Below, one piece after another: positions 11,714 to 23,718 of a stretch of DNA of 64,000 bases (position 1 is its first letter; each line of letters begins with the position of its first letter). The stretch is from Sphingomonadales bacterium (GTDB lineage: Bacteria > Pseudomonadota > Alphaproteobacteria > Sphingomonadales > Sphingomonadaceae). The position numbers and the translations under genes were made by a program. Under the pieces are notes generated by a model. That model saw only the letters and a list, made by a program, of their open reading frames with translations, searched no databases and was not told the origin of the DNA. The stretch lies in assembly GCA_027486415.1 (NCBI GenBank), contig JAIXPC010000002.1, forward strand, positions 372,001 through 436,000, written 5' to 3'.

Positions 11714-14116
11714 ATGTCGAAAACGAGTGGCACGCCGACCGCAAAGGCCTCTTCGGGTCAGGGTGGGTCTGGCCCCAAGGCCGACACTGTTCTGGGTCGA
11801 AAGCTGCAGCCTGCAGTTGCTTCTGCGGCCGATTTGCGACCGATGAAGCTGGCCCTCAAGGCCGTGAAGGAAGCCGACGACGCCCGCGATGCGTCGGGTG
11901 ACGAAGCGGTCGATGTGGCCGCGCCTGAAAAGATCGCCATGGTTGACCAGGCCGCCCAGGGCGCCGTGACCCTTGCAAGCGAGCCGGCCGATGCTGCCGG
12001 TCAGACCGCTGCGGCTTCGGCCGCCCCCGCTGCTGCCGCCAGCAGCGCGGGCGGGATCGGCGCCATGCCGCTCGTGCTTGGTGGCCTTGCCGTGGTCGGC
12101 GGCGGTCTCGCGCTGGCTGGCGGCGGGAAGAAGGACACGGCTCCCACGCCGCCCGTCACGCCGCCGGCAACTCCGGTCAACGGGGCCCCGGTCGTTGCGG
12201 CCACGCAGGCGGTGTCGGTGGCCGAAGACGCCAAGGCCACCATTACCGTTTCGGCCACCGATCCGAACGGCGATACCCTCAGCTACACCAACACCGCCCC
12301 CAGCAAGGGCAGTGTCACCGCGTCGGGCAACAGCTTCGTTTACACGCCCAATGCGAATTTCAACGGCACCGACAGCTTCACCGTCACCGTCAACGACGGC
12401 AAGGGTGGCACGGTCACGCAGACGGTCAACATCACCGTCACGCCGGTGAACGACGGTCCGGTCGCTGCTGCCGACACCGGCGCTGCCACCGAAGACGCCG
12501 CGGCGCTGACCGGTTCGGTGGCCACCAATGACAGCGACCTGGATGGCGATACGCTGACCTATGCGCTGGCTGCTCCGGTTGCGGGCCTGACGCTGAACAG
12601 CAATGGCAGCTACAGCTTCAATCCTGCCGATGCCGCCTATCAGAATCTCGCCGCCGGCCAGGTGCGCGATGTCGTTGCCAACTACAGCGTCTCTGACGGC
12701 AAGGGTGGTACCGCGACCTCGACCCTGACGATCAAGGTTACCGGGGTGAACGACGCGCCGTCCGTGGCGGCCGCCCAATCGGTGGCGGCGAACGAAGATG
12801 CGGCGTCGGTGGCCTTCACGGTTGCGGCGACCGATGTCGACCAGGGTGATGCCCTGGTTTACCTCGTCCCGTCCCAGTCGGCCAAGGGCGGCGCCGTGAC
12901 CGCGGGTACCGGTGGTACGTTCACTTATGTGCCGCTGCCCGATTTCAACGGCACCGATTCGGTTGTCGTCACGGTCACCGACCGGGCGGGGGCGCAATCG
13001 ACCCAGACCGTGACGTTCAATGTCGCGAGCAACCTGGCCGAAACCCTTTCGATCGACGTCAGCAATGACAGCCAGGCCACCACCTATGATGCGGCTGGCT
13101 CGGGCTTCACGGCCGGTGACAACTTCAAGTTCACCGACGATCCGGCACGCGCAACCAACGCCCGAATCGTCAACTTCACCCGTGGCGACACGATTGAAGT
13201 GGCCGGCAACGCTGATGGTTACAGCTTCTCGTCGGTCGGCACGGATCTGGTGATCAGCTTCAACAACACCAGCGCCGGCGTGCTCAACCAGATCGTGATC
13301 CCGGGCGTCGCCACCGGCTTCATCCGCGATGAAGCCAGTGCCGAAAGCGTGCTCGGCCACGACTTCTTCCGCGCCACCACCAATTCCGCCGGCGGTGGCA
13401 CTGGCACGGCAGCGGCTGGCGGCAACCTCGATCTCGACAACGACAGCAATGTCTCGACGACCGCGCTCACCAGCGCCGCCGGATCCGACATCGCGTATAC
13501 CGAGAACGCCGATGTCGCCAACGCCATCCGCATCACGGATTTCGCCCGTGGTGACACGATCACCGTGTCGAACGCGACGGCCAATACCTACAGCTTCACG
13601 TCGATCGGCAACGATCTGGTCATCACCGCCAACAAGGCCGGCATTGCCAGCTCGATCGCCATCGCCGGCGTGGTGCCGACCGGTGCCTTCGTCAACAACG
13701 AAGCCAGCGCCGAAGCCGCCCTTGGTTTCGACTTCTTCCGCTTCGCGTCCAGCGGCGGTTCGGGCGGTGGCTCGGGCGGCCAGGGCACGGCGCAGAGCAT
13801 CGATAACGGCGCCACGGTGTCGACCATCAACGCCGGCACCGCCGCTCTCAATTTCACCGATGATGCAACCAAGGAGACCAACGTTGTAATCACGAACTTC
13901 ACCGCAAACGACCGTATCAGCGTCAGCGGTGCCACTCTGGCTCAGTATTCGTTCACGAATACCGATCCCAACGATCTCGTCATCACCGCGCCAACCGGCA
14001 ATGGTGGTGTCAACAGCATCGTTCTTGATGACGTCCTTGTGGGCAAGAACGTCTTCATTTTCGACTATGCCACGGCCCGTCAGGCAGTTGGCTTCGATTT
14101 CATGGTCTTCGGCTAA
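11714..14116 (+). CDS. Putative T1SS-secreted surface protein: Gly-rich hydrophobic N-terminal segment, cadherin/VCBS-like repeats, three ~105-aa C-terminal repeats
   Basis: 800 aa from the ATG at 11714. GGIGAMPLVLGGLAVVGGGLALAGGGKK; repeats of the type VNGAPVVA...DPNGDTLSYT...FTVTVNDGKGGT; tail repeats ending EASAExxLGxDFF; no Cys seen. Confidence 0.8.
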   Translation: MSKTSGTPTAKASSGQGGSGPKADTVLGRKLQPAVASAADLRPMKLALKAVKEADDARDASGDEAVDVAAPEKIAMVDQAAQGAVTLASEPADAAGQTAAASAAPAAAASSAGGIGAMPLVLGGLAVVGGGLALAGGGKKDTAPTPPVTPPATPVNGAPVVAATQAVSVAEDAKATITVSATDPNGDTLSYTNTAPSKGSVTASGNSFVYTPNANFNGTDSFTVTVNDGKGGTVTQTVNITVTPVNDGPVAAADTGAATEDAAALTGSVATNDSDLDGDTLTYALAAPVAGLTLNSNGSYSFNPADAAYQNLAAGQVRDVVANYSVSDGKGGTATSTLTIKVTGVNDAPSVAAAQSVAANEDAASVAFTVAATDVDQGDALVYLVPSQSAKGGAVTAGTGGTFTYVPLPDFNGTDSVVVTVTDRAGAQSTQTVTFNVASNLAETLSIDVSNDSQATTYDAAGSGFTAGDNFKFTDDPARATNARIVNFTRGDTIEVAGNADGYSFSSVGTDLVISFNNTSAGVLNQIVIPGVATGFIRDEASAESVLGHDFFRATTNSAGGGTGTAAAGGNLDLDNDSNVSTTALTSAAGSDIAYTENADVANAIRITDFARGDTITVSNATANTYSFTSIGNDLVITANKAGIASSIAIAGVVPTGAFVNNEASAEAALGFDFFRFASSGGSGGGSGGQGTAQSIDNGATVSTINAGTAALNFTDDATKETNVVITNFTANDRISVSGATLAQYSFTNTDPNDLVITAPTGNGGVNSIVLDDVLVGKNVFIFDYATARQAVGFDFMVFG
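13040..14113 (+). repeat. Three tandem diverged ~320-340 bp coding repeats (about 13040-13377, 13430-13746, 13791-14113)
   Basis: Shared pattern FTDD..TNA.I.NF..GD.I.V..A..YSF...G.DLVI...I.I..V...F...A...LGFDFF across the three units. Confidence 0.75.
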
Positions 14117-14118
14117 TC

Positions 14119-14147
14119 GGTGAAAAAGGCAGTGCTGCCTGCTCACC
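14119..14147 (+). promoter_or_regulatory. Intercistronic hairpin between the two surface-protein genes
   Basis: GGTGA...AGGCA-GTGC-TGCCT...TCACC: 5-bp inner stem with tetraloop plus a 5-bp outer stem; no U-tract; AGAAAAGAGGGA ribosome-binding region follows. Confidence 0.5.
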
Positions 14148-14169
14148 CCAAGAAAAGAGGGAATAAACA

Positions 14170-17100
14170 ATGAATCGTCTGATCCTTGCGTCGGGCAGCA
14201 CCTTTACCGTTGGTGCTGGCTCGTCTCTGACCACCGTTTTCGGCACCACCGGCAACGAAACCCTTTCGATCGGCGTCGGCGCCAAGGTCGTGCTGGATGC
14301 CTCGTTCAACCGCGGTGGTGACACGATCACCCTCGCTGGCAACGCCGCCAGCTACACCGCCCGCCAGAGCGGCTCGTCGGTCATCCTGACCGATGCCTCG
14401 GGCTCGGAAATCACCATCCCGGTCGGTGTCACCGGCGCCTCGGTGGCCTTCGCTGACGCTGCTGCCCGCACGCTGGTGTTCAACACCCAGACCAACGCCA
14501 TCACGCTCGGTGCCGACGTCGTTGACGCCACCGCCGATGCCCTGGCCGCTGGCAGCTCGGCCGTCGCTGGTCGCGCCTTCAACCTCACTGCCGGCATCGA
14601 CAGCGGCGCTGCCTTCGCCGGCGGCGCTGGCGACGACACCTACAGCGCCATCGCCACCACCTTCTCGGCTGGCGACGTGCTGAACGGTGGCGCGGGCAAG
14701 GACACGCTTGCCATCGTCGACAACGTGGCCGGTATGGGCATCGCTGCTCCGTCGGCGACCCTGACCAGCATTGAAGCGCTGACCATCTCGACCAACGGGC
14801 GCGTCGGTGTCCAGGCCGTCCAAGGCACCACCGCCGTCGCCCAGGTCAACACGATCTCGTTCACCGGCGCTGTTGACGTTGGCGATCGCTACAGCGTGAC
14901 CTACAATGGTGTCACCCAGGCCAGCGCCGGTTCGGCGGCTGCGACTGCGGCTGGCGCTGCTACCGTTGTTGCCAACACCATCAATGCCATGGCCGGCTCG
15001 TCGATCGCCGCCGTCTCGGGCAACAATGTCGTTGTGACCGCGCCGGTTGCCGGTACGCCGTTGCCGGCCTTCTCGGTTGCTGTGGTCGATTCCACCAACC
15101 AGACTGGCCTTCCCTCGATCGCGCTCACGACCGCCAACGTTGTCGGCGTGGCCGGTGTGACCGCCGCCGCCTATGACGTGTCGAGCTTCACGTCGCTGAC
15201 GGATGCCACGGTCTCGGCCGATGGCGCTGTCAACCTGAAGGCTGCCGGCACCCAGAATGTTGCCATCACCTCTGGCGCTGGTGTGACCCTGGCTGGCGGT
15301 CTGGCGCAGAATGTCACCGCCAAGGGCGGCTTCACGGTCAGCGGCGGCAAGGGCGCCGTCACCGTTGTCGACAGCGCCCAGGGCGCCGTTGCGTCGTCGG
15401 TCACCGATGGCACCTCGGTGAACATCACCTCCACGTCGCGCAACGACAACGGCACGACCGGCACGATCACCGTCGGCAGCAACACCAATGCTCCGACCGG
15501 CGCCGTGGCGATCAAGAGCACCATTTCGGAAGTGAAGAGCGCGAACAACACCGCCGGTGGCGCCATCACCGTCACGGGCGGCACGAGCGTCTCGGTCGAT
15601 CAGGTCGCTGTAAAGGCCCTGAACGACGCTGGTTCGGCCAACGGCTCCATCACCAACGCCGCCGTCACCGTGACCGGCACTGCCAGCACCACGTCGGTTT
15701 CGGTCGCCGCGACAAAAGCCGTCGCGGCAGCCGCCACTGTTGCGGCCGTTGCCGGCGTTACGGAAGTGGCGACGCTGACCTTCACTACCCTCGCCAACAA
15801 TACCTCCGCAACCGTCAACGGTCTGACCTTCACCAACACGTCCGGTGGGACGCTCACCGCGCAGCAGGTGGCCGCAGCCTTTGCCAACCTCTCCGCCGGC
15901 GCGACCCACGGCGCTTCGACGCGGGGCGTTTATTCGGGCACCTTCTCGACGGAAGGCTGGACGTCGGGCGCTGTCGGCGGCACCACCGCTGCTCCGACCG
16001 TGACCTTCACCGGCACCACGACAGGCGCACGGACTGACCTGGGGACCGGCACCGGCATCTCGGCTGCAACGACTGTGACGGACGGCGTGACCGCCGTTGC
16101 CGCCGCTGGTCGCACCGGCGTCGTCGCCAACTCGGTCACCGTGACCGACGTCAACAATGGCTCCACCACGAAGGCTGGCACCATCACCTCGGTGACCGCC
16201 GCGAACTACACGACGGTTACGGTGAACAGCAACGCGCTGAACACCCTCAGCCTGACGGGCGGTTCGGGCAACATCACCATCGGCAACGGCAGCCTGGTCG
16301 GCAACACGGCCACCACGCTGAACCTGACGGTGAACGGCCTGACCGGCGGCACGCTGGACGATGCTGATGTCTACAAGACCATTAACGTCACCGCGACCGG
16401 CGCGAACTCGACCCTGGCCAACATCACCAACACCGCGCTGACCGCGCTGACGGTTGGTGGCGACAAGACCTTGACGCTGACCAGCACGGCCGGCGCCACT
16501 GCCCTGGCCAATGTCACCGTCACCGGCGCAGCCGGCGTGACGGCGACCTTTGGTGCCGGCACGATGAAGGCTATCGACACAACCGGCACGACCGGCACCA
16601 GCACCATCACCTTCGATGCGACGCTGGCCACCTACACCGGCGGTGCGGGTTCCGATCGTGTCACCACCTCGGCCGTTGCGCCCTCCAAGGCCATCGACCT
16701 TGGTGCCGGTGATGACCGCCTGCAGCTGGCGCAAGGCACGAATTCGGTGACGGGTGCCATTTCGGGTGGCAGCGGTACCGACCGCCTCATCATGACCGCT
16801 GCCGATGCGGCGACGGCCGACAACGATCTGGCCTTCTCGGCGCTGGTCACCGGGTTCGAAGTTCTCCAGCTCATTGATGTCAGCAACCAGTCCGTCAATC
16901 TGGCCAACCTGGGCATCACTTCGAACGTCGTGATCGGTAATCGCGTCAATACGGGCACGCTGCAGGTTGCCAACCTCGTGCGGGGTGGCACCGTCACCGT
17001 CAACGCCCAGACTGGGGCAGCTGATGTTGTCGAATTTGACAATGCTGCCTGGAGGGCAACGGGCGCCAGCAGCGACAGCCTGAACATCAACCTTGGCAGC

Positions 17101-17907
17101 TCGGCTGGTAACACGAACGAGAACAACGGCACGGTCCAGACGAAGGGCATTGAAAGCATCGCGCTCAGCGCAACTCACGCCACTGCCGACACAAACGGTG
17201 TTGATATCGCTGCCGGCACCTTCAAGAACACGGTTGCCGTCAACGATACCTCGACGACCGACTCGCTGGCATCGTTGACCATCACCGGTAACGCCGGCGT
17301 TATCCTCGACGTGGCCGGGTCGACCGCACTTCGCACGATCGACGCCAGCGCCAACACCGGCGGTGTCACCGTGACGGCCGCGAGCACGTTGGCCGCCACC
17401 CTCACCGGCGGTTCGGGCAACGACAGCCTGACGGCCACCACCGGCACCAATGCCGACGTGCTGAACGGCGGCGCCGGCAACGACACGCTGACTTCCAACC
17501 AGGGTCTGACCACCCTGACCGGTGGTGCTGGTCGGGACCTGTTCGTGGTGGCGACGGCCGGTGCCAACGGAAACGTCTACACCACCATCACCGATGCGGC
17601 GGCTGGCGATCGCCTCGAGCTGTCCAACCGGGGCACCGAGACGTTCGCGACGGCCAGGCTGAACCTGGCAGCTACGGCAACCTTTGCCGATTACCTGAAC
17701 CTCGCTGCTTCGGGCGACGGTTCTTTGGCCGGCCGGATCTCGTGGTTCCAGTTCAACGGCAACACCTACGTTGTCGAAGATCTGTCGGCAGGCGCCACCT
17801 TTGCCAACGGTAGCGATATCGTCGTCGCCCTGTCGGGCCTCGTCGATCTCAGCACCGCGTCGCTGGCCTACAACGTCGGCGGCGCTCCGGTCCTGATGTT
17901 CGGCTGA
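14170..17907 (+). CDS. Putative S-layer/RTX surface protein with RsaA-like C-terminus
   Basis: 1245 aa, Thr/Ala/Gly/Val rich, no Cys seen. RTX motifs GGAGDDTYS, GGAGKDTLA, GGAGSDRVT, LGAGDDRLQ, GGSGTDRL, GGSGNDSL, GGAGNDTL, GGAGRDLF. C-term TITDAAAGDRLEL...ATFADYLNLAASGDGS...SWFQFNGNTYVVEDLSAGATFANGSDIVVALSGLVDLST resembles RsaA. Confidence 0.82.
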   Translation: MNRLILASGSTFTVGAGSSLTTVFGTTGNETLSIGVGAKVVLDASFNRGGDTITLAGNAASYTARQSGSSVILTDASGSEITIPVGVTGASVAFADAAARTLVFNTQTNAITLGADVVDATADALAAGSSAVAGRAFNLTAGIDSGAAFAGGAGDDTYSAIATTFSAGDVLNGGAGKDTLAIVDNVAGMGIAAPSATLTSIEALTISTNGRVGVQAVQGTTAVAQVNTISFTGAVDVGDRYSVTYNGVTQASAGSAAATAAGAATVVANTINAMAGSSIAAVSGNNVVVTAPVAGTPLPAFSVAVVDSTNQTGLPSIALTTANVVGVAGVTAAAYDVSSFTSLTDATVSADGAVNLKAAGTQNVAITSGAGVTLAGGLAQNVTAKGGFTVSGGKGAVTVVDSAQGAVASSVTDGTSVNITSTSRNDNGTTGTITVGSNTNAPTGAVAIKSTISEVKSANNTAGGAITVTGGTSVSVDQVAVKALNDAGSANGSITNAAVTVTGTASTTSVSVAATKAVAAAATVAAVAGVTEVATLTFTTLANNTSATVNGLTFTNTSGGTLTAQQVAAAFANLSAGATHGASTRGVYSGTFSTEGWTSGAVGGTTAAPTVTFTGTTTGARTDLGTGTGISAATTVTDGVTAVAAAGRTGVVANSVTVTDVNNGSTTKAGTITSVTAANYTTVTVNSNALNTLSLTGGSGNITIGNGSLVGNTATTLNLTVNGLTGGTLDDADVYKTINVTATGANSTLANITNTALTALTVGGDKTLTLTSTAGATALANVTVTGAAGVTATFGAGTMKAIDTTGTTGTSTITFDATLATYTGGAGSDRVTTSAVAPSKAIDLGAGDDRLQLAQGTNSVTGAISGGSGTDRLIMTAADAATADNDLAFSALVTGFEVLQLIDVSNQSVNLANLGITSNVVIGNRVNTGTLQVANLVRGGTVTVNAQTGAADVVEFDNAAWRATGASSDSLNINLGSSAGNTNENNGTVQTKGIESIALSATHATADTNGVDIAAGTFKNTVAVNDTSTTDSLASLTITGNAGVILDVAGSTALRTIDASANTGGVTVTAASTLAATLTGGSGNDSLTATTGTNADVLNGGAGNDTLTSNQGLTTLTGGAGRDLFVVATAGANGNVYTTITDAAAGDRLELSNRGTETFATARLNLAATATFADYLNLAASGDGSLAGRISWFQFNGNTYVVEDLSAGATFANGSDIVVALSGLVDLSTASLAYNVGGAPVLMFG

Positions 17908-17978
17908 TCGTGTCACAGGCCGCCGTCCGGGCTGATCGGCCCGGGCGGCAGCCTCGATCACCCGGATCGGAAAACGTT

Positions 17979-18016
17979 GGCCCGCATGCCACTCCGGTGG
18001 GATGCGGGCCTTTCGT
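17979..18016 (+). terminator. Intrinsic terminator after the RsaA-like gene
   Basis: GGCCCGCAT-g-CCAC-tccg-GTGG-g-ATGCGGGCC followed by TTTCGTT; near-perfect extended hairpin. Confidence 0.8.
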
Positions 18017-18118: not shown

Positions 18119-18310
18119 ATGAGCAGCGTTACCATCGACAACATCACCTATCCGCTCGACGCACTGTCGGATGACGCAAAGGCCCAGATGGTCAGCCTGC
18201 AGGCTGTCGATCGCCGCCTGGCCGATCTCCAGGAACAGGTGGCCATCCTGCAGACGGCGCGGATTGCCTACTCCAACGCCCTGCGCGGCATGCTGCCCTC
18301 GCCGAACTGA
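18119..18310 (+). CDS. Small protein, possibly DUF6447-like
   Basis: MSSVTIDNITYPLDALSDDAKAQMVSLQAVDRRLADLQEQVAILQTARIAYSNALRGMLPSPN (63 aa); DUF6447 assignment from memory. Confidence 0.65.
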   Translation: MSSVTIDNITYPLDALSDDAKAQMVSLQAVDRRLADLQEQVAILQTARIAYSNALRGMLPSPN

Positions 18311-18334
18311 TCGCACCGGCTGCGGGCTGACGGC

Positions 18335-18853
18335 ATGACGCCAGACGCCGCCATCACGCGACTGACGACCCACTACGACCCGGATGAGGACAGGGTCGCC
18401 CTGAACTGTGAAACCGGTTCGGGTACCCTGTCCCTCTGGATGACGCGCCGTCTTGCCGATCGGCTGCTGGCCGCCCTGTTCGACCTTGCGGGCAAGATCG
18501 ATGCCGGGCCGTCGGTGCCGGCCTTTGCTGAACCCTTCTGGCGCGCGCAAACCCAAAGCGAAGCCCAGGCGGCCCTGCCGGCGCTGCCACCCGTGCGTCC
18601 CGCGGCGCCCATCGATCAGCATCTGTTGAAGGCGGTGCGGATCGAACCGCAGCCCCAGTCGGTGACGCTTGTCTTCGAGGCGAAATCTGGCCTTTCGACG
18701 TCATTGGCTCTGCCATTGGCGCATCTGCTGCAGTGGTTGAAGATCCTGCACGGCAGCTATGTGGCGGCCGGCTGGGCGTTTGACGGCTGGCCGGAATGGT
18801 TTCTGGACGTGAATGCGCCGCCGGCGCCGCCAGCGGGAATCGTGCTCCACTGA
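18335..18853 (+). CDS. Hypothetical protein in T1SS locus
   Basis: 172-aa ORF, same strand, between the DUF6447-like ORF and the TolC homologue; no recognised family. Confidence 0.6.
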   Translation: MTPDAAITRLTTHYDPDEDRVALNCETGSGTLSLWMTRRLADRLLAALFDLAGKIDAGPSVPAFAEPFWRAQTQSEAQAALPALPPVRPAAPIDQHLLKAVRIEPQPQSVTLVFEAKSGLSTSLALPLAHLLQWLKILHGSYVAAGWAFDGWPEWFLDVNAPPAPPAGIVLH

Positions 18854-19036: not shown

Positions 19037-20449
19037 TTGAACAAGCCGTGTCGGTGCGGTGTCCGACAAGCGTTGAATAGGGTCAGTTCTTTGGTCAGGT
19101 TGCGCTATCGCCTGGGGCTTGTTTGCACCGTCTGGCCCTGTCTTGCCTCGGGTCTTGCTTTGGCTCAGCCGGCCGCAACCTATGGTCCGCCCAACCCGGC
19201 GGCGCGGCAACCGGCCCCCGTGGCGGCCGTGATCGATGCGCCCTATCCCGGTGTTTCCGCTGCTCTGCGCGACCTCGCCGCGGGTGCCGCCACCACGCAT
19301 CCGCAGATCAGGGCGGCCGAAGGGCAGATCAGGGCCGCCGGCTATGATGTGCGCGGGGCGAAGTGGCTGCGTTTTCCCAGCCTGTCGGTCGAGGCGCTGG
19401 CCATCAGCCGCGGCAGCGCCAACGCCGCGCAGGACGGTACGGTTCTGAACGCCGTGCTGGAACAGCCGATCTGGTCCGGCGGGCGGATCGCCGCTGCCAA
19501 CGATCGGGCCAAGGCACAACTGAGCCTGCAGCACGCCGTCCTCGACGAAACCGTGCGGGATCTCTCCCTGCGGGTGGTCCAGGCCTATTTCGACGTGGCC
19601 GCGGCTGCGATGCGAAGTACGATCCTTGCCGACGCGCTGGCCAAGCACCGGGAGCTTGCAGACACGATCTCCCGCCGGGTCGAACAGCAGGTCAGCCCGC
19701 AATCGGATCTGGATCTGGCGCGCGCCCGGGCCGCGCAGGTGGAACAGCAACTGGCCTTTGCCCAGGCGCAGCGCGGCGCCGGATACAACACGCTGGTCGA
19801 ACTTTCGGGCGACAACCGGATCGATCTGGGGGACGTGCCACCTTATAGCCCGGAACGCCATCATCCCGCCCGCGAAGGGGCCATCGAACGCGCGCTGGCC
19901 TGCGATCCGCGCAGCGCCCGTCTGCTGGCAGAGGCAAGCATCGCCCGCGCCGAACAGCGCGCGGCCAAGGCGGCCTTCTGGCCACAACTGGTCGGCCAGC
20001 TGTCCAGCAACGAAGTGCTTGGCGAACGTGTCGGTGTCGCCCTGCGCGCCCAGTCCGGCAACGGCCTTTCCCAGGCGGCCGCCGCCCAGAGCGCGGCCGA
20101 GCGCGCGCTGTCCCGCGAGGCGGCGATCGTGGCGGCGCAGCGCGACCTGCGCGAAGCGTTGCGACTGGATTTCGTCAACAACGGTGCCGCGCGCGACCGC
20201 ATTGCCAGTGCCGGCGCTGCCGCTTCCAGCTCGCAGTTCGTGATCGATTCCTACAAGCGGCAGTTCATCGCCGGTCGGCGCACATGGCTGGACGTGATGA
20301 ACGCCCTGCAGGAAGCCACCAACACCCGGCTGGCCGTCGTGGACGCGCAGATCACGGCGCAATCCACCACTGCCCGCATTGCCCTGCGAACCTGTGCCTG
20401 GCTGCCAAGGCCGCATTTCGACAAGACGGAACCGACCAATGGTCAATAA
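19037..20449 (+). CDS. TolC family outer membrane efflux protein (T1SS)
   Basis: LASGLALAQPAATYG signal-peptide-like start; AVLEQPIWSGGRIAAANDRAKAQLS; RQFIAGRRTWLDVMNALQEATNTRLAVVDAQ. Start codon uncertain. Confidence 0.85.
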   Translation: MNKPCRCGVRQALNRVSSLVRLRYRLGLVCTVWPCLASGLALAQPAATYGPPNPAARQPAPVAAVIDAPYPGVSAALRDLAAGAATTHPQIRAAEGQIRAAGYDVRGAKWLRFPSLSVEALAISRGSANAAQDGTVLNAVLEQPIWSGGRIAAANDRAKAQLSLQHAVLDETVRDLSLRVVQAYFDVAAAAMRSTILADALAKHRELADTISRRVEQQVSPQSDLDLARARAAQVEQQLAFAQAQRGAGYNTLVELSGDNRIDLGDVPPYSPERHHPAREGAIERALACDPRSARLLAEASIARAEQRAAKAAFWPQLVGQLSSNEVLGERVGVALRAQSGNGLSQAAAAQSAAERALSREAAIVAAQRDLREALRLDFVNNGAARDRIASAGAAASSSQFVIDSYKRQFIAGRRTWLDVMNALQEATNTRLAVVDAQITAQSTTARIALRTCAWLPRPHFDKTEPTNGQ

Positions 20450-22541
20450 CAGCGCCATTTTCGCTGCGATCGAAGCCTTCGCGCGCGCCCGGGCGGCCTC
20501 GCTCGCGCCGGGCTGGAACGATGGGGTGGACCTCGATTCGCTGCCCGAGGGTGTCGCTGCCATCGGCACCCTTTGCGCCCGGCTGGGGTGGCCTGCGCCG
20601 GCCCAGGTTTCGGGCAGGCCCCGTCCTGACCAGTTCCCGCTGTTGTTGTGGTCCCCGGCGCTGGGATTCGTGGTGGCCGAACAATGGGCCAATGACACCA
20701 TGTTGCGCCTGCGCGATATCGATGGCGACCTGTGCCCCTTTGCCGACGACATGGTGTTCCTGGATCTTGGCCTGCCCGATCCGGTGACCCGTGAAGCCGG
20801 CGAAAAGGCGGTTTCGGTCTTCTGGAACGCGACGATGCGGCGTCGCAACGTGCTGCTCACCGCGACGCTGGCGACGGTCGTTGCCAATATCCTCACGCTG
20901 GCCACCTCGCTTTATTCGATGCAGCTGTTCGATCGGGTCATCCCGCTGGGCAGCTTTTCGACATTGTGGGTGCTCACCATCGGCGTTCTTGTTGCCCTGG
21001 TCCTCGATCTGGTGATCCGCACCACGCGCGCGCTGCTGGTCGAACGCGAAGCGGCCGAAATCGATGCCGAAGTGTCGGAATTCTTCTTTGCCCGCACCCA
21101 GGCCGTGCGTCTTGATGCGCGACCGCCCGGCATCGGCACCATGGCAGCGCAACTGAAGGGCCTGGAACAGGTGCGCGGGATCATGTCCTCCACCTCGCTG
21201 TTCGTGCTGGCCGATCTGCCCTTTGCCCTGTTGTTCATCATCGTCGTCTATTGGCTGGGCGGCGTCGTCGCGCTGATTCCGATCATTTCGCTGCCGCTGG
21301 CCCTTGGCGTCGCTTTCCTGATCGCGCGATCCTTGCGAGTCGGCACCGAACGCGCCCAGGTCAGCGGCAATCGCAAGAACGGCATGCTGGTCGAGGCGCT
21401 CGACGCCGTCGAAACCATCAAGGCCAACGGCGGCAGCTGGTTCATGCTGGCGCGCTGGAACCGCCTGATCCGCGAGATTCATCACCACGAAGACCCGATC
21501 AAGCGCACGTCGGCCCTCACCGCCTCGATCTTCTCGTCGCTGCAGCAGGTCGCCTATGTGCTGCTGATGGCGGTCGGCGCCTATGAAGTCGCCCAGGGTC
21601 GCCTCACCTCCGGCGGACTGCTCGCCTGCTCCATCATCGCCGGCCGTATCAACGGGCCGCTGATCAGCATGCTGCCCAATTTGATCGTCCAGTGGGGCTA
21701 TGCCCGCTCGTCGCTGAAGGCACTCGACATGATCCTGGCGCTGCCGGTTGACAGCACCGCCACCCGCGGCGCGCTGCGCCCCGGCCGCCTTGCCGGCAAC
21801 ATCGTGCTCGACAGGGTGAAGTTCGCCTACCCCGGCGCGCGCGAGGGGCTGGACATCCCGCAGCTCGAATTCCGCGCCGGGGAGCGCGTGGCGATCATCG
21901 GCGGCGTGGGTTCGGGCAAATCCACCCTGCTGCGGTTGATGGCCGGGCTTTACATCCCGCAACAGGGTTCGGTCAGGCTGGGTGGCCTCGATGTCGGCCA
22001 GATCGCCGACGACGTCGTGCGCGCCCATATCGGCTATCTGCCGCAGGATTATCGCCTGGTGAACGGCACCCTGCGCGAAAATCTGCTGATGGGCCTGGGC
22101 AACGTCAGTGATGACGAGCTGGTGCGCTGCGCCCAGCAGACCGGGCTGGCGAGCATGATCGCGGCCCATCCCAAGGGGCTTGATCTGATGCTGAGCGAAG
22201 GCGGGCGCGGCCTGTCAGGCGGCCAGCGCGGGCTGGTCGGCATGACCCGGCTGCTGCTCGGCAAGCCGGCTTTCATGCTGCTCGACGAGCCGACGGCGCG
22301 GCTCGACCAGTCGACCGAACAGCTGGTGATGAACAGCGTGCTGCAACAGCTGGCGCCCGATCACGGCCTGGTGATCGTCACCCACCGCCTGCAACTGCTG
22401 TCGGCCGTGCAGCGCGTCATCGTGATGGCCCAGGGCCGGGTCATCCTTGATGGGCCCACGGCCGATGTCGTCGCCAAGCTGACGGCCAAGCGTCCCGGTC
22501 CGCAGGTGGTCCCCACCGCCGCCGTCGCCCCCGCGCAGTGA
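20439..22541 (+). CDS. Type I secretion system permease/ATPase
   Basis: Walker A GGVGSGKSTLLRLMAG, signature LSGGQRGLVGMTRLLL, Walker B FMLLDEPTARLD; ~130-aa N-terminal extension before the TM domain; overlaps the tolC-like stop by 11 bp. Confidence 0.93.
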   Translation: MVNNSAIFAAIEAFARARAASLAPGWNDGVDLDSLPEGVAAIGTLCARLGWPAPAQVSGRPRPDQFPLLLWSPALGFVVAEQWANDTMLRLRDIDGDLCPFADDMVFLDLGLPDPVTREAGEKAVSVFWNATMRRRNVLLTATLATVVANILTLATSLYSMQLFDRVIPLGSFSTLWVLTIGVLVALVLDLVIRTTRALLVEREAAEIDAEVSEFFFARTQAVRLDARPPGIGTMAAQLKGLEQVRGIMSSTSLFVLADLPFALLFIIVVYWLGGVVALIPIISLPLALGVAFLIARSLRVGTERAQVSGNRKNGMLVEALDAVETIKANGGSWFMLARWNRLIREIHHHEDPIKRTSALTASIFSSLQQVAYVLLMAVGAYEVAQGRLTSGGLLACSIIAGRINGPLISMLPNLIVQWGYARSSLKALDMILALPVDSTATRGALRPGRLAGNIVLDRVKFAYPGAREGLDIPQLEFRAGERVAIIGGVGSGKSTLLRLMAGLYIPQQGSVRLGGLDVGQIADDVVRAHIGYLPQDYRLVNGTLRENLLMGLGNVSDDELVRCAQQTGLASMIAAHPKGLDLMLSEGGRGLSGGQRGLVGMTRLLLGKPAFMLLDEPTARLDQSTEQLVMNSVLQQLAPDHGLVIVTHRLQLLSAVQRVIVMAQGRVILDGPTADVVAKLTAKRPGPQVVPTAAVAPAQ

Positions 22542-22548
22542 TCATGAA

Positions 22549-23718
22549 ATGAAGGCCATGCAGAAACTCGCATCAATCCGCCTGTCGACCTGGATCATCC
22601 TCACGTCGGCGCTGTCCGTGTTCGCCTTCGTGGTCTGGGCCAGCTGGGCCGAGATCGACCAGATCTCCCGCGCCACCGGCAAGGTGATCCCGATCGGCAA
22701 GATCCAGGTGATCCAGAGTGTCGACGGCGGCGTGATCGAGGAGATGCGGGTGCGGGAAGGCGACATCGTCCGCAAGGGCGAGCTGCTGGTGCGGATCGAC
22801 CGGGTCAAGGTCCAGGCCGCCGTCGCCGAAAGCCGCGCCAAGGTCGCCGCCTTCAAGAGCATCATGGCCCGCATCGAGGCCGAACTCTATGACCGCCCGC
22901 TCAGCTTCCCGGCCGATGTGCGCGCCTATCCCGAATTCGTGTCGAACCAGACAGCGCTGTTCACCAAGCGCCGCTTTGCCATCACCTCGGAAATCGCCGC
23001 GCTGGAATCCATCAAGCGCCTGATGCAGCAGGAGCTTGAGCTCAACCTGCCGCTCGTGTCCAGCGGCGACGTCGCCCGCGCCGAAATCATCCGGATGCAG
23101 CGCGGCATTGCCGATATCCAGGGCCAGATCGTCAACAAGCGCAGCAAGTATCAGCAGGATCTGCAGGCCGAATTTGCCAAGGTCGAGGAAGACCTGGTCA
23201 GTGCCGAACAGATCCTGGCCCAGCGCGTCGACGCATTGGCCGCCACGGAACTGCGTGCGCCCAGCAACGGCATCGTCAAGAACGTGCGGCTGACGACGGT
23301 GGGCGCCGTGCTGCGGCCGGGTGACGAGGTGATGCAGATCGTGCCCACCGGCGAACGCCTGATCGTCGAGGCGCAGGGCGCGCCGCGGGATATCGCCTTC
23401 ATCAAGATCGGCCAGACGGCCTCGGTGAAATTCGATACCTACGACAGTGCGATCTATGGCTCGGGCGTGGGCGTTGTCTCCTACGTCAGCCCCGATACGC
23501 TGGTCGAGCAGCGGCCCGACGGCCAGAGCATGACCTATTACCGCATCAACCTCGATGTCGACATCAGCCAGATGCGCCCGCACAAGGCCGGCGAACGCAT
23601 CGTGATCCAGCCCGGCATGACCGTGACCGCCGAAATCAAGACCGGCGAGAACACCGTCATGCGCTATCTGACCAAGCCCATTCTGAAAACCGTTGCCGAG
23701 TCCTTCGACGAACGCTGA
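22549..23718 (+). CDS. HlyD family T1SS periplasmic adaptor subunit
   Basis: WASWAEIDQISRATGKVIPIGKIQVIQSVDGGVIEEMRVREGDIVRKGELLVRIDRVK; LRAPSNGIVKNVRLTTVGAVLRPGDEVMQIVP. Confidence 0.93.
   Translation: MKAMQKLASIRLSTWIILTSALSVFAFVVWASWAEIDQISRATGKVIPIGKIQVIQSVDGGVIEEMRVREGDIVRKGELLVRIDRVKVQAAVAESRAKVAAFKSIMARIEAELYDRPLSFPADVRAYPEFVSNQTALFTKRRFAITSEIAALESIKRLMQQELELNLPLVSSGDVARAEIIRMQRGIADIQGQIVNKRSKYQQDLQAEFAKVEEDLVSAEQILAQRVDALAATELRAPSNGIVKNVRLTTVGAVLRPGDEVMQIVPTGERLIVEAQGAPRDIAFIKIGQTASVKFDTYDSAIYGSGVGVVSYVSPDTLVEQRPDGQSMTYYRINLDVDISQMRPHKAGERIVIQPGMTVTAEIKTGENTVMRYLTKPILKTVAESFDER

Follow-up and report, generated by a model that had tools for sequence, protein, structure and literature searches.

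A conserved pair of small genes between an S-layer gene and type I secretion genes in a Sphingomonadales bacterium

Introduction

Type I secretion systems (T1SSs) are usually described as three-component machines that export their cargo without a dedicated helper. Many of them, including the Caulobacter RsaA system as generally described, are to our knowledge not known to need small accessory genes between cargo and exporter. Two such genes are found in a Sphingomonadales bacterium (assembly GCA_027486415.1, contig JAIXPC010000002.1), in a 64,000-nucleotide stretch of DNA that was analysed as a whole and is called the window here, which raises the question of what they do. A first-pass annotation of the window had described them as two uncharacterised open reading frames (ORFs) between an S-layer-like gene and exporter genes, and had suggested from their location that they act as chaperone, secretion-signal adaptor or expression regulator.

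Layout of the locus

The features of the locus are as follows (window coordinates, strand, description and basis).

11714..14116, + strand: tandem-95/bacterial Ig repeat protein of about 800 aa (Pfam Big_9, E=2.9e-46; NCBIfam tand_rpt_95, E=1.2e-43)
14170..17907, + strand: RsaA-type S-layer protein, 1245 aa (phmmer against RsaA structures 6p5t, 5n97 and 5n8p)
17922..17949, + strand: first strong RNA hairpin, 3' of the S-layer gene (folding energy scan)
17979..18010, + strand: second strong hairpin, with UUUCGUU behind it (may be a terminator or attenuator)
18119..18310, + strand: DUF6447 family protein, 63 aa (family alignment, PF20045, AlphaFold)
18335..18853, + strand: 172-aa member of an unnamed T1SS-linked family (profile and homologue searches, AlphaFold)
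19037..20449, + strand: TolC-like outer membrane channel of the T1SS (Pfam OEP, E=2.5e-30; TIGR01844, E=2.1e-29)
20379..22541, + strand: T1SS ABC transporter, LssB type (TIGR03375, E=9.8e-181)
22549..23718, + strand: HlyD-family periplasmic adaptor (TIGR01843, 300.7 bits against a cut-off of 208.65)

The window therefore holds the full set of a type I secretion locus, namely ABC transporter, HlyD, TolC and a cargo with an RTX/RsaA C-terminus. Both small ORFs lie where the first-pass annotation had placed them, with its quoted 63-aa peptide exact, and its reading of the flanking genes is borne out by the Pfam and NCBIfam matches of the exporter genes, tolC first, and by the homology of residues 650–1235 of the upstream protein to Caulobacter RsaA (phmmer, E=3e-46 to 2e-44). 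This S-layer protein is the presumed T1SS substrate, and the tandem-95 protein, whose start at 11714 is the first ATG of the ORF and was picked by eye, is probably a second, co-secreted surface protein. The true start of the ABC gene is possibly the ATG at 20439. Antisense to the S-layer gene runs a 1272-aa open frame (14143–17961, − strand), a composition effect that is longer than the real gene and may mislead a length-based gene caller.

The stretch behind the S-layer gene folds strongly (−79.5 kcal/mol, z=−6.9). The 'strong terminator' reported there earlier holds as far as the two hairpins are concerned, whereas a consensus scan of the stretch found no classic U-tract terminator; Rfam elements were likewise absent from the locus.

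The two protein families

The 172-aa ORF begins 24 bp after the 63-aa ORF on the same strand, and both have a coding-like GC content by codon position (0.65/0.41/0.84 for the 63-aa ORF and 0.69/0.51/0.78 for the 172-aa ORF). On the opposite side run mechanical ORFs of 173 and 183 aa, so that ORF length alone is no proof that a frame is real; the proof is conservation. Neither protein has a signal peptide as judged by eye, in agreement with what had been noted for the 63-aa protein.

The 63-aa protein scores below the threshold of the Pfam DUF6447 profile PF20045 (14.6 bits, E=0.029; cut-off 27 bits), and its assignment, first made as 'DUF6447-like', comes from its relatives. All 40 aligned family members match PF20045, some above the cut-off (up to 32.4 bits); tblastn found 17 plasmid-borne relatives with 37–54% identity, 15 of them annotated as DUF6447; and a genome scan added 52 further loci. 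The window protein has the family core IDxxxY...LSxxAKxQ...QTARxAY and shares with DUF6447 its length, the beta-hairpin plus helix and the conserved QTARxAY, while being a divergent member by score; by sequence, it belongs to this family. The ORF has a longer in-frame start at 18002, but the family alignment favours the Met at 18119, which is preceded by AGGGA. AlphaFold predicts a beta-hairpin (residues 3–12) and one long 41-residue helix (18–58) with a pLDDT of 90.8. Such a lone long helix would need a partner, which suggests that DUF6447 works as an oligomer. The fold search returned zero matches, and the literature searched holds no mention of DUF6447, whose function is undescribed.

A phage origin of DUF6447 was rejected, with one weak PHROG match and zero relatives in phage records or IMG/VR contigs at the limits used. 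ZapA (PF05164) is matched at E<=0.05 by 12 of the 40 DUF6447 members (best 2.7e-4), the three members with listed scores being below the cut-off; the match is collinear with the N-terminal 55 positions in some members, whereas the gene context of DUF6447 is unrelated to division. This similarity is weak at the profile level and in hhalign (probability 19%) and stops short of establishing homology.

Many DUF6447 relatives end in GDTIKLS/GDTLKFN-like tails, which loosely resemble the acidic-hydrophobic C-termini of T1SS substrates. These tails would fit DUF6447 being itself a small exported T1SS protein, a reading that we consider quite improbable, as the tail is missing in the window protein and in Roseobacter members, the domain also forms the C-terminus of cytosolic-looking enzymes, and its copies adjoin SapC and GT41 genes as well as cargo genes.

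The 172-aa protein had been assigned to no recognised family. This is true of Pfam and NCBIfam, where it has no match (PHROGs matches are all non-significant), but not of the protein as such, which by sequence belongs to a recognisable, unnamed, T1SS-linked family. It aligns with a homologue in locus L010 at 30% identity over 158 aa (E=2e-19, single-pair) and with further homologues at 28–35%, carries the family motif EDRI...LWLTRRL...LRQWL...WPEWF, and scores 203.7 bits against the family profile, of which it is itself a part; four plasmid homologues outside the profile reach E values of 3e-42 to 8e-51. Wider, mostly solitary relatives occur in 25/385 genomes sampled from the class and in 35/399 from the phylum (6–9%). 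Those in loci L103–L111 and L113–L118, of 167–260 aa with EDRLLLR...LWLTRR, lie mostly away from T1SS genes and have no database name; two distant members (L102, L112) lie directly before T1SS ABC and HlyD genes.

The predicted fold of the 172-aa protein (AlphaFold) is a duplicated beta-beta-beta-alpha unit. PUR-alpha or another known fold was rejected, since Foldseek and the PDB profile search gave no significant match: the PUR repeats are found at a Foldseek probability of 0.1–0.4, E of 0.1–0.3 (at least 0.13) and TM of about 0.3. The resemblance bears on the suggestion that the pair is a regulator of S-layer gene expression, for example through binding of the weakly PUR-like 172-aa protein to the hairpin-rich RNA 3' of that gene. 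Strong hairpins before the pair would suit this, but hairpins behind a cargo gene are ordinary terminators, the fold match is non-significant, and the protein has no sequence match to solved structures; we regard regulation as improbable.

Conserved gene order and distribution

The order DUF6447 – 172-aa family – (x) – ABC – HlyD is found in the window and in loci L010, L025, L034, L049, L212–L214 and L217, from Pseudosulfitobacter, Sulfitobacter, Roseovarius, another Rhodobacteraceae MAG and Comamonadaceae; some of the carriers are Roseobacter plasmids. Sulfuricurvum (L016) has the same order with a weak 157-aa homologue (E=2e-7) in the slot of the 172-aa protein, locus L050 ends inside the ABC gene, and in Chlorobiaceae (L023, L041) the same genes are rearranged, with a member of the 172-aa family before one of the DUF6447 genes. 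Twice on the Pseudosulfitobacter pseudonitzschiae plasmid CP069018, a tandem-95 gene, in the position that it has in the window, is followed by a large RTX-like protein, DUF6447, the 172-aa family, ABC and HlyD, which is the window's order without TolC. When plasmids were queried reciprocally with the 172-aa family, 5/5 places had the family member immediately after DUF6447, at a distance of −4 to 63 bp, and in front of a T1SS; one of these places was already known. In Sulfitobacter indolifex, a clear DUF6447 comes after each of two RTX-type (DUF4214) cargo genes, and a weak match comes after a third; several loci consist of cargo, gene pair and T1SS and nothing else. DUF6447 and the 172-aa family are thus a conserved pair that travels with T1SS genes and S-layer-like cargo in several distant bacterial groups.

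Counts point in the same direction. Genes for T1SS ABC, HlyD, RTX-like/S-layer-like protein, SapC or TolC are present in 30/54 DUF6447 loci, against 3/37 control stretches that were not strictly random draws, came from Alphaproteobacteria only and in several cases from genomes chosen for other reasons; in about 45% of DUF6447 loci, genes for T1SS, RTX-like protein, SapC and TolC are all missing from the available DNA, in which many contigs end early. T1SS, RTX-like or SapC genes lie within 10 kb in 6/6 DUF6447 genomes drawn regardless of context, against the same controls (p=1.4e-5), and the ORF immediately upstream of DUF6447 is RTX-like, by composition only, in 21/51 cases compared with 22/451 other ORFs (p=4.6e-12), both p-values being too small because DUF6447 loci share ancestry. 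Genes in the compared loci were called by a simple longest-ORF script. The 172-aa family occurs in 3/3 DUF6447 genomes compared with 22/382 others in the class sample and in 3/5 compared with 32/394 in the phylum sample, the two samples overlapping. The first-pass annotation had proposed co-occurrence as a check, with homologues mostly away from T1SS loci as the outcome that would speak against it, and the result favours linkage.

Among 60 relatives examined, including 23 congeners, DUF6447 was not found, and the best match of the window ABC in the congeners has 37% identity, so that they have no close relative of it either and the locus is patchy. This is consistent with acquisition or repeated loss, and the plasmid location of many DUF6447 relatives fits transfer. 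In four gammaproteobacterial loci (L059–L062) an integrase-like ORF ends 50–100 bp before DUF6447. These integrases, the absence from the 23 congeners and the patchy, often plasmid-borne occurrence would all suit small genes that hitchhike on mobile surface-protein islands and have no role in export. We hold this to be very improbable in view of the tight order that Alphaproteobacteria, Comamonadaceae and Sulfuricurvum share and of the sequence constraint in both families.

Fusions and other neighbours of DUF6447

DUF6447 is also found outside the pair. In eight loci (L026, 9011–10219; L006, L019, L027, L036, L038, L048, L051) it forms the C-terminus of a protein that also has a domain of about 330 aa, which is strongly conserved and yet has no Pfam, NCBIfam or PDB match. 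Gulbenkiania mobilis (L045:8744–10195) has an ATP-grasp protein with a C-terminal DUF6447 domain, and in a Polaromonas MAG (L052:8247–10735) a GT41+methyltransferase protein ends 24 bp before the DUF6447 gene. SapC (PF07277) is present in 11 DUF6447 loci by clustering, and glycosyltransferases, rhamnose genes and regulatory-domain methyltransferases recur nearby. SapC of S-layer loci resembles DUF6447 in being a gene of undescribed function that recurs in these loci; it is a different Pfam family and was not found near the window pair.

The fusions make enzyme docking the main rival explanation. Here DUF6447 would be the handle on which cytosolic enzymes dock that glycosylate, methylate or ligate surface proteins before export, and its link to T1SSs would be secondary; the GT41 and other modifying genes beside it would also suit this. 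In the window, however, no modifying enzyme turned up in the interval from the S-layer gene to the exporter, several loci hold only cargo, pair and T1SS, and the fused domain of about 330 aa is of no recognised enzyme family. We judge docking to be unlikely, though by no means negligible.

Proposed role in surface-protein export

From its location, a role of the pair in export is well supported: its conserved travel with T1SS genes and S-layer-like cargo in distant groups makes the two proteins probable helpers of surface-protein export. We give about an even chance to the reading that they are conserved, co-operonic, cytosolic accessory proteins of a T1SS locus exporting RsaA/RTX-like surface proteins, in which DUF6447 binds or holds cargo or cargo-acting proteins and the 172-aa protein is its partner. 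Of the roles proposed in the first-pass annotation, a pure secretion-signal adaptor is too narrow, since DUF6447 is found beside SapC and glycosyltransferase genes and in fusions with ATP-grasp and the domain of about 330 aa; the same fusions and the GT41 and SapC neighbours count against a simple chaperone.

The linkage is observed; as to mechanism, we infer that DUF6447 most likely acts at export as a cytosolic coiled-coil adaptor or holdase and that the 172-aa protein is its partner. DUF6447 would be made next to the cargo gene as a small oligomeric coiled coil, would bind cargo that is nascent or unfolded, or else proteins acting on cargo, such as SapC and glycosyltransferases, and would keep these close to the ABC transporter until export takes place. 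Its partner, the 172-aa protein, may couple DUF6447 to the exporter or to the cargo.

Cytosolic assistance has precedents in type I secretion, where SecB helps the secretion of HasA and HlyB has a C39-like domain that serves as a chaperone-like tether (PMC8277102). The role envisaged for the window pair would be analogous to that of SecB, as a cytosolic helper acting on T1SS cargo, whereas no similarity to SecB was found and the window's helper genes are encoded in the locus and linked to RTX/S-layer cargo. The Caulobacter RsaA locus likewise combines an RsaA-homologous cargo with T1SS ABC and HlyD genes; unlike it, the window has TolC in the locus, an LssB-type ABC transporter and two extra small genes between cargo and exporter. 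A possible parallel that we considered but do not claim is MEALZ_0972, a small gene that shares an operon with a methanotroph S-layer gene (PMC11784148).

More broadly, and tentatively, with somewhat less than an even chance, DUF6447 and the 172-aa family may form an unrecognised cytosolic accessory module of type I secretion in Alphaproteobacteria, Comamonadaceae, Chlorobi and Campylobacterota, with DUF6447 copies paired to single cargo genes. The window pair itself is real and, as a probable accessory module of a T1SS locus, ordinary in kind, and we found no prior description in the literature searched. If the module reading is true, it would provide a dedicated class of cargo chaperone or adaptor for systems usually described as needing none, and the three-component picture would gain a conserved helper pair whose DUF6447 member is paired with cargo in several loci. 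With a helper role, a DUF and an unnamed family would acquire a function, and there would be a handle on the delivery of S-layer and adhesin cargo in surface-attached bacteria. The pair also serves as a marker of T1SS surface-protein loci in genomes that lack annotation. The genome of the window has a second T1SS ABC gene (contig C8:42820–44499), which also scores above the LssB cut-off.
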